Shown here: positions 30,915 to 63,228 of the stretch, piece after piece
Layout of the letters: the number at the start of each line of letters is the position of its first letter
Numbering within the stretch: position 1 is the first letter of the stretch
Assembly (NCBI RefSeq): GCF_028714655.1
Contig: NZ_JAQTLY010000006.1
Location: 62,001-126,000, forward strand
Reading direction: 5' to 3'
Origin: Sulfurimonas sp.
GTDB lineage: Bacteria > Campylobacterota > Campylobacteria > Campylobacterales > Sulfurimonadaceae
DNA length: 64,000 nucleotides
The notes under the pieces: model-generated
The model's input: only the letters and a program-made list of their open reading frames with translations
What the model was told of the DNA's origin: nothing
Databases searched by the model: none
Translations under genes and position numbers: made by a program

Positions 30915-30930
30915 AATATCTTTCCTTTAA

Positions 30931-31040
30931 TTTATTTCATAAATTTAAGGGAACCTTTTCCCTAATTTGTCCACAAAAGGAACTCGTCCCTTTTGCTTCG
31001 CTAGCCGCTATGGCACTGAAGCTTGACACTGCCGTGTCAG
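30931..31040 (-). repeat. L-family leader element, copy 1 (nifU leader)
   Basis: Read on the minus strand: a GACAC-GGCA-GTGTC hairpin (31025-31039), the core AAGCTTCAGTGCC..AGCGGCTAGCGAAGC (30995-31024), a hairpin GCAAAAGGGAC-ga-GTTCCTTTTGT (about 30973-30996), a second hairpin (GGGAA-aagg-TTCCC) and a TTTATGAAATAAATT end that runs into the nifU ribosome-binding site. The nearest relative is L2 before leuC. It lies between nifS and nifU, sense to nifU. Confidence 0.85.
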
Positions 31041-31070
31041 AAATTTATACTTTCTTTTAACAAGGAATTG

Positions 31071-35602: not shown

Positions 35603-35608
35603 TATAAT
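35603..35608 (+). promoter_or_regulatory. candidate -10 box of leuC
   Basis: TATAAT in a T/A-rich context. Campylobacterota sigma-70 promoters often depend on the -10 box and have weak -35 regions, so a single hexamer is reasonable but not decisive evidence. Confidence 0.4.
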
Positions 35609-35673
35609 TACAAAAACAAAATAATAAATAGCGAGATTGCTTCCAATCGTCGTATTAAAATATAAAATCAAAT

Positions 35674-35790
35674 CTGACACGAAAGTGTCAAGCTTTAGTG
35701 CCACAGCGGCTAGCGAAGTGAAAGGGACGCGTTCCTTTTACGGACAAATAAATGAAGGAATTCCTTCATTTTATGAAATAAAATTAAGGA
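35674..35790 (+). repeat. L-family leader element, copy 2 (leuC leader)
   Basis: Hairpin TGACAC-GAAA-GTGTCA (35675-35690), core AAGCTTTAGTGCC..AGCGGCTAGCGAAGTG (35690-35719), hairpin GTGAAAGGGAC-gc-GTTCCTTTTAC (about 35718-35741), perfect palindrome AATGAAGGAATTCCTTCATT (35751-35770), and TTATGAAATAAAATTAAGGA which supplies the leuC ribosome site. The neighbouring upstream gene is divergent, so it is not an upstream terminator. Confidence 0.87.
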
Positions 35791-38781: not shown

Positions 38782-38925
38782 TAGATTTCTTGCATAACTA
38801 AAAAAATAGATTCCAAATCAAGTTTGGAATGACGAGGTTGTCAAGTTTGGAATGACGAGATTTCTGAGTTTCCGTCATCCTGAACTTGATTCAGGATCTT
38901 TGGTTTGCAATAAGTTTATTAGATT
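38782..38925 (+). repeat. P-family double-palindrome repeat, copy 3
   Basis: GCATAACTAAAAAAATAGA, TTCCAAATCAAGTTTGGAA with a second partial AAGTTTGGAATGACGAG unit, then CCTGAACTTGATTCAGG and TTTGGTTTG. It is flanked by perfect 15-bp direct repeats TTTATTAGATTTCTT at 38777-38791 and 38915-38929. It lies between mobA and moaC. Confidence 0.8.
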
Positions 38926-38950
38926 TCTTACAAAAATGTATGAAATCTTC

Positions 38951-39019
38951 TGTCTTGTAAGAGACAAGCTTTAGTGCCACAGCGGCTAGCGTAGCAAAAT
39001 GGGCTCTGCTCATTTTGCG
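38951..39019 (+). repeat. L-family leader element, copy 3 (moaC leader)
   Basis: CTTGT-aagag-ACAAG hairpin, core AAGCTTTAGTGCC..AGCGGCTAGCGTAGC (38966-38995), then GCAAAATG-ggctctgct-CATTTTGC (38994-39018), an 8-bp stem that can extend inside. It ends 22 bp before the moaC ATG and is sense to it. Confidence 0.85.
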
Positions 39020-39040
39020 TTCTATAAGAAATGAGAAAAT

Positions 39041-51949: not shown

Positions 51950-51955
51950 TAAAAT
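51950..51955 (+). promoter_or_regulatory. candidate -10 box of metH
   Basis: TAAAAT preceded by CTCTTTTGG. It would start the metH transcript near 51962, so that element L4 is at the very 5' end of the mRNA. Weak evidence by itself. Confidence 0.35.
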
Positions 51956-51970
51956 CAACCAATTGTTTTC

Positions 51971-52040
51971 TGCCGCTTTTTGCGGCTAGCTTTAGTGCCA
52001 CAGCGGCTAGCGTAGCTAAATGGGCTTTGCTCATTTGGCG
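51971..52040 (+). repeat. L-family leader element, copy 4 (metH leader)
   Basis: GCCGC-ttttt-GCGGC hairpin (about 51973-51985), core TAGCTTTAGTGCC..AGCGGCTAGCGTAGC (51987-52016), then GCTAAATG-ggctttgct-CATTTGGC (52015-52039; stem includes a G-U pair). It ends 27 bp before the metH ATG and is sense to it. The upstream gene is divergent. Confidence 0.85.
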
Positions 52041-52066
52041 TGATATTTTAATACAAAGATTTATTT

Positions 52067-63087: not shown

Positions 63088-63114
63088 CAATTTCCTTTTT
63101 TATTTAATTTAAAA

Positions 63115-63168
63115 CGCCAAAGGAAGTAATTCCTTTGGCTACGCTAGCCGCTATGGCACTAAAGCTTG
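63115..63168 (-). repeat. L-family leader element, copy 5 (tig leader)
   Basis: On the minus strand: core AAGCTTTAGTGCC..AGCGGCTAGCGTA (about 63139-63168), then GCCAAAGGAA-TTAC-TTCCTTTGGC, a perfect 10-bp stem (63116-63139). No hairpin precedes the core in this copy. It ends 28 bp before the tig ATG and is sense to it. Confidence 0.85.
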
Positions 63169-63228
63169 ATTTATTATTTTATTATTTTGGTAATGTTACC
63201 TTAAATCTGCTTTTATCTATCTTTAGAG

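Follow-up and report, generated by a model that had tools for sequence, protein, structure and literature searches.

REP/RAYT (Y1) systems are composed of folded intergenic DNA or RNA repeats with variable stems and tandem arrays, and BOX, ERIC, Correia and other MITE-like repeats are short and modular, lie in transcribed intergenic regions and are patchy between strains. Translational riboswitches, e.g. preQ1-I, have a compact pseudoknot followed by alternative hairpins, only one of which forms at a time and which either block or release the Shine-Dalgarno (SD) sequence. Regulatory RNAs are usually viewed as arising at each gene or as being inherited with it, and to our knowledge few riboregulators are known in the phylum Campylobacterota. 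A survey of noncoding RNAs in 50 genomes described mobile/repeat sequence candidates (MRSC), covarying structured motifs with many copies per genome and inconsistent orientation, of which MRSC-65-2, a single long stem, is an example (PMC11109978); a check of its main text turned up no Campylobacterota genus. The L elements described here resemble all of these systems in the features just named.

The window, i.e. the whole stretch of 64,000 nucleotides analyzed from a Sulfurimonas genome, possesses five L copies in front of genes encoding NifU, a LeuC family protein, MoaC, MetH and trigger factor according to NCBIfam. An earlier note on this DNA had located five copies sharing a core, and all of them were present at those sites, with the core AAGCTTYAGTGCC-N2-AGCGGCTAGCG exact or one off in each; the motif AAGCTTTAGTGCC has 7 matches in the window versus 2.05 expected. 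The arms of the hairpin following the core, H2, differ yet pair in all five copies, and a preceding hairpin, H1, was found in four, both as the note had claimed; the copy without H1 is that of tig. A covariance model (CM) was built from 30 gap-free copies, with 6 bp in H1, 3 bp in the core and 10 bp in H2. The leuC element (35672..35745, + strand; RNA fold; CM match 85.5 bits, E 1e-14) is composed of H1 TGACAC/GTGTCA, the core hairpin with its pseudoknot, and H2 GTGAAAGGGA/GTTCCTTTTAC. The nifU element, with H1, core and H2, lies at 30969..31042 on the - strand (81.3 bits). The moaC element (38948..39022, +, 79 bits) and the metH element (51968..52043, +, 67.2 bits) are of the short form, and the tig element (63112..63179, -) has a match of 70 bits and a fold z of -3.2. 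An extra hairpin H0, AGATTTCTTAcaaaaatgTATGAAATCT, precedes the moaC copy (38921..38948, +), inside the insert relative to genome G021. Just upstream of the same copy, a palindromic repeat of another type, TCATCCTGAACTTGATTCAGGATCT, occupies 38876-38900, a position near moaC that corresponds to the promoter region in G114 and G022.

L consists of two hairpins, H1 and H2, on either side of a 3-bp core hairpin; the NNAGC loop of the core pairs with the following TAGCG, giving an H-type pseudoknot. Among 112 distinct copies, 96.1% of the cells are paired versus 70.5% in shuffles, and 479 cells are double-changed versus 116 shuffled, so that the test of covariation suggested in the earlier note strongly supports the paired arms. 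Double changes were found in 17 of 19 pairs, the signal is lost when partner columns are slid by one to three, and covariation is likewise seen within the source genome alone. Core pair 8-16 occurs as C-G, G-C, A-U and U-G and pair 7-17 as G-C, A-U and G-U, and the length variants of the core (TAGCC/GGCTC, CGCC/GGCG and short GC forms) preserve the helix. The pseudoknot is supported by the exchange of C-G for U-A at pair 14-20, which among 74 distinct cores reads C-G in 62, T-A in 11, T-G in one and C-A in none, the T-A forms coming from several genera; the Fisher p of 3e-12 for this exchange is overstated because the sequences are related. An alternative core stem, TAG/CTA, was dropped, since T18 varies without a change in its partner. 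At iscS-like sites H2 was exchanged as a block with H1 unchanged. The structure of H1, pseudoknotted core and H2 is real; the earlier note had recognized its hairpins, but neither the pseudoknot in the core nor the switch, described below, that sequesters the SD. In five copies (L005, L039, L071, L258 and L341) an insert of ~20 nt, gaggtaccccttgagggtat, forms a nested hairpin at the tip of H2.

Allowing up to 3 mismatches, the core pattern has 43 matches in the 2.19-Mb source genome and the reversed pattern none; of the 58 places located by the CM at E<1, ~53 reach E<0.01. Within the genus of the source genome, 94 of 135 genomes have copies. Of 397 genomes sampled across the phylum, 67 do, and these belong to four families of one order, Campylobacterales; a genome has up to ~55 copies. 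Divergent core forms are undercounted in this survey, since the scan for the core favours the commonest form. Named contigs with copies come from Sulfurimonas, Sulfuricurvum, Sulfurospirillum and their relatives. The CM search that the earlier note had proposed thus finds relatives across Campylobacterales. The covariance models of Rfam 15 gave no match in the window at the gathering threshold and chance-level matches only, with E up to 5, at four loci; the earlier statement that no described RNA family is known to have this core agrees with this comparison, in which no relative appeared. A literature search on the core, on Sulfurimonas repeats and on structured RNA of Epsilonproteobacteria found no description of the L element. 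The L repeats are a previously undescribed family of structured RNA-like elements.

Gene context was assigned to ~205 copies from heuristic ORF calls and ARAGORN tRNAs. In gaps between codirectional genes 85 copies are sense and 59 antisense, and a further 25 lie between divergent and 17 between convergent genes. The enrichment in leaders expected from the earlier note holds in the source genome (sense:antisense 23:6, p=0.002) but not outside it (62:53, p=0.46), so the equal orientation that the note had set against its own reading is seen in part for the family and not for the source genome. Antisense copies are often found 0-10 bp downstream of a stop codon or tRNA end, their H2 ending at a median distance of 6 bp from it. 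On the sense strand, G-U pairs outnumber A-C pairs by 44:6 in codirectional sense copies and by 24:4 in codirectional antisense copies, counts that leave out the fixed G-U pair and are somewhat biased because the model prefers G-U. This wobble pair is nearly fixed as G-U overall (GU 40, AC 1 in antisense copies); since it would be a mismatch on the opposite strand, the folded strand is constant whatever the gene direction. The strand called sense is therefore the folded strand in antisense copies too, a feature that does not follow from a simple mRNA-leader model. At orthologous antisense sites (flhB, thiG, ribE-like, narH-like, tRNA-Arg/Leu), 43 pairs are compensated versus 11 broken, which points to selection in place or, less probably, to renewal by new copies. 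Copies in the spacers of tRNA-Leu/tRNA-Arg clusters of several species (L009, L105, L106, L116, L122, L138, L245) are mostly antisense and 6-11 bp beyond the tRNA end, with H1 rewritten yet paired. Upstream of thiG the element is antisense in Sulfurimonas, whereas in the related genus g4 it has the sense orientation and carries the SD switch; the opposite orientations in this gap (L238, L339 versus L121, L136, L105) suggest its repeated use. A promoter of its own driving the sense strand was rejected, as no -10-like profile was detected upstream of H1 in either orientation. A replication-strand function was not persuasive either, with 32 leading versus 22 lagging copies in three complete genomes, assuming the origin at the contig start.

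Orthologous sites of leuC, metH and moaC display patchy occupancy between the -10 box and the ribosome-binding site, which reflects either gain or loss of the element between species. The leuC start region is common to the 30 relatives compared, most of which have the TATAAT box (35603..35608, +, in the window), and the element is found only in G000, G114, G124 and G105. Empty sites that keep the promoter are found in G021, G022 and G130; the empty site of G021 reads cgcgaaaataaagaagtaaaATCTAAGGAActctaatattATG and the filled site of G105 reads cgcgaaaataaaataaaATCTGATACG...GCAATAAAATTAAGGAATAATTTATG. G000 and G114 have an apparent decayed H2 of an older copy upstream, and the leuC flanks hint at a direct repeat, AATAAAAT, a candidate target-site duplication noted at this one site only. 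The metH and moaC sites are empty in most relatives with the promoter retained, and a truncated remnant is present in G052. The metH -10 box TAAAAT (51950..51955, +), upstream of the element, is conserved in filled and empty relatives, and the moaC element is present in G114 and G022 and absent from G021 and G007. The description of a leader-targeted mobile repeat in the earlier note came close: the elements are structured and patchily inserted between promoter and start codon, but leader specificity finds no support as a general rule.

Many copies in both orientations, together with occupied and empty orthologous sites, are what is expected of a mobile intergenic repeat. The even orientation outside the source genome, the antisense copies at gene ends and the patchy sites identify the L family as a dispersing structured repeat. 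The tandem arrays repeat every 83 to 129 bp, often with flanking DNA in the repeated unit, and look like local duplications. Three arrays of G000, at C12:57640-57904 (3 L units), C2:107928-108335 (5) and C15:44687-45019 (3), have units with nearly identical spacers. No carrier or mobilising enzyme was found in searches for transposases, RVT_1, plasmids and phages. Mobility as RAYT/Y1-driven REP was rejected, since Y1 transposase genes exist at 15 loci in 12 genomes without copies beside the gene; retro-mobility was rejected, since the RVT_1 reverse transcriptase is absent from the source genome and several other copy-rich genomes; and plasmid or phage carriage was rejected, since PLSDB and INPHARED gave no element match. 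IMG/VR contained five matches to the core, two of which are weak GC-rich look-alikes.

The nifU and leuC copies, termed the longer form in the earlier note, owe their length to a third module, the SD-pairing switch. In these and ~40 related leaders H2 is followed by an anti-anti-SD arm X, an anti-SD arm Y and an arm Z with the SD. At leuC, X (AAATGAAGG, 35750..35758, +) pairs fully with Y (CCTTCATTTTAT, 35763..35774, +; a match in the window), which can pair with X or Z, and Z (ATAAAATTAAGG, 35778..35789, +), containing the SD, is conserved in 34 such platforms. The whole nifU module lies at 30922..30965 on the - strand, with X TTAGGGAA at 30958-30965, Y TTCCCTTAAATTTAT at 30939-30953 and the SD arm Z ATAAATTAAAGGAA at 30922-30935; all three arms differ in sequence from those of leuC and both pairings are preserved. 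Among the 34 platforms X-Y pairing holds in 301 of 306 cells and Y-Z is paired throughout except for one invariant C-U mismatch, its tip covarying as TAT/ATA, TAC/GTA and TGT/ACA. Nearly all substitutions in X are A-to-G, the sole change that keeps X-Y without disturbing Y-Z, and in L078 and L373 each of the three arms is longer by one matched base. The platform follows 20 of 110 sense-leader copies, whereas the 76 copies that face the end of a gene all lack it (p=1.5e-5). When the platform sequence alone was used as the query, almost all of the leaders recovered had upstream of the platform either L, a variant of it or a sister domain termed L2, also in L-poor genomes; the upstream domains were judged by eye, since classing by regular expression missed L2 and overstated the exceptions. 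The two platforms without a clear L, hemE L347 and leuC L355, both hold apparent remnants. In nine genomes from other families in which L is missing (G135-G148), the platform is absent as well. These results show that a conserved putative SD switch is tied to the L family. The platform pattern has no match in several L-rich genomes, e.g. G372 (Sulfurospirillum-like), G468 and genus g5, which implies that L has another role, or none, in G372 and g5.

L2 has the arrangement AGC-[T-stem-GCYGA-stem]-AAC-NYAGYGTTARCGTAG-H2-CGTGA, in which an extra TGCYGA hairpin replaces TTTAGT. It occurs at L078, L234, L247, L338, L340, L353, L354, L360, L363, L366, L369 and L370, feeds the same SD switch, and is dominant in some L-poor genomes, e.g. 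G012. A 103-aa protein without Pfam match, MAVGLVGNAIYVNQQT..., is encoded behind long-form leaders at L097, L099, L155 and L043.

We consider, with a probability of about 0.6, that L is a dispersing strand-specific structured element and that a copy established in a leader can work in cis to switch translation. It would spread as a non-autonomous repeat, and a copy landing in sense between promoter and start codon would become part of the mRNA leader. In the long forms, pairing of Y with X would leave the SD free (ON), and pairing of Y with Z, which holds the SD, would give the OFF state. Predicted energies favour ON by ~0.5-4 kcal/mol (nifU ~0.5, otherwise ~3-4), so the OFF state would need help; the L domain might bias the choice through a ligand, a protein or a physical cue and thereby set translation. 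A stronger form, that L is a self-dispersing regulatory leader which inserts together with its SD switch and brings unrelated housekeeping genes under shared post-transcriptional control, its copies coming and going from one species to another, is possible and is put forward tentatively.

A purely selfish or neutral mobile repeat of the REP/BOX/MITE kind, its structure kept for movement, its switch module a passenger hairpin and leaders tolerating insertions, is rather unlikely. It would account for the intergenic spread with near-even orientation outside the source genome, the patchy orthologous sites, the lineage-typical H2 sequences and the arrays, and multi-copy, inconsistently oriented motifs are classed as mobile/repeat candidates in PMC11109978. 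However, compensatory change at orthologous sites implies selection in place, and the switch occurs only in sense leaders, where its SD is in register and both alternative pairings are kept.

A conventional cis-regulatory RNA that serves a coherent regulon, either as a riboswitch or as a leader bound by a protein, appears improbable; on this reading the antisense copies would be remnants or would belong to unmapped antisense transcripts. Leader copies do have a conserved structured domain, with transcription suggested by the conserved -10 boxes; the long forms alone add exclusive SD/anti-SD pairings kept by covariation (34 platforms), the pseudoknotted domain is sensor-like, and the element recurs at leuC, nifU, dnaK, thiG, glmS and ppnP in several genomes. 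A structured domain in a transcribed 5' leader is not true of the antisense copies, however, and a third of the copies run antisense to both flanking genes and are conserved in that position, with patchy occupancy of the same gene. The genes behind the switch (leuC, nifU, dnaK, groEL, ilvC, ilvD, fabI, glmS, thiG, dapB, hisA, hemE, glyQ, rplS, trxB-like, redoxin, ppnP, flgD, flgG and a MerR/HspR-like regulator) are diverse housekeeping genes without a common pathway; a single-ligand riboswitch was rejected since this set is incoherent and too diverse for one metabolite.

An RNA thermometer, whose AT-rich Y-Z hairpin would melt with temperature and in which L would be only a spacer or stabiliser, is very improbable: the SD-sequestering hairpin is AT-rich with a fixed mismatch, and dnaK, groEL and the MerR/HspR-like regulator are among the genes, but a thermometer needs neither the conserved pseudoknot core nor X, and heat-shock genes are a minority. 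Hardly credible is a transcription terminator, attenuator or mRNA-stabilising hairpin usable in either orientation, because, although strong hairpins lie near tRNA 3' ends and stop codons, neither H2 nor the reverse H1 is followed by a U-tract, the wobble pairs show folding of the non-transcribed strand at antisense sites, and the conserved leuC, metH and moaC promoters lie upstream of the element.

Taken as a dispersing element that can switch translation, L combines a covariation-proven domain, patchy at leaders, with a subset tied to a bistable ribosome-binding-site switch; if working as proposed, it would represent a post-transcriptional regulon assembled by dispersal of a ready-made switch. 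Compared with translational riboswitches, L has no Rfam match and no single pathway, and is dispersed and multi-copy. It differs from REP/RAYT by the lack of an adjacent RAYT and by its unpaired conserved core, pseudoknot and leader switch. Unlike BOX, ERIC, Correia and MITE-like repeats, it has a strand-specific pseudoknot and variable compensated hairpins, and it shows no terminal inverted repeats. Unlike MRSC-65-2, it possesses three helices, a pseudoknot and, in a subset of copies, an SD switch.
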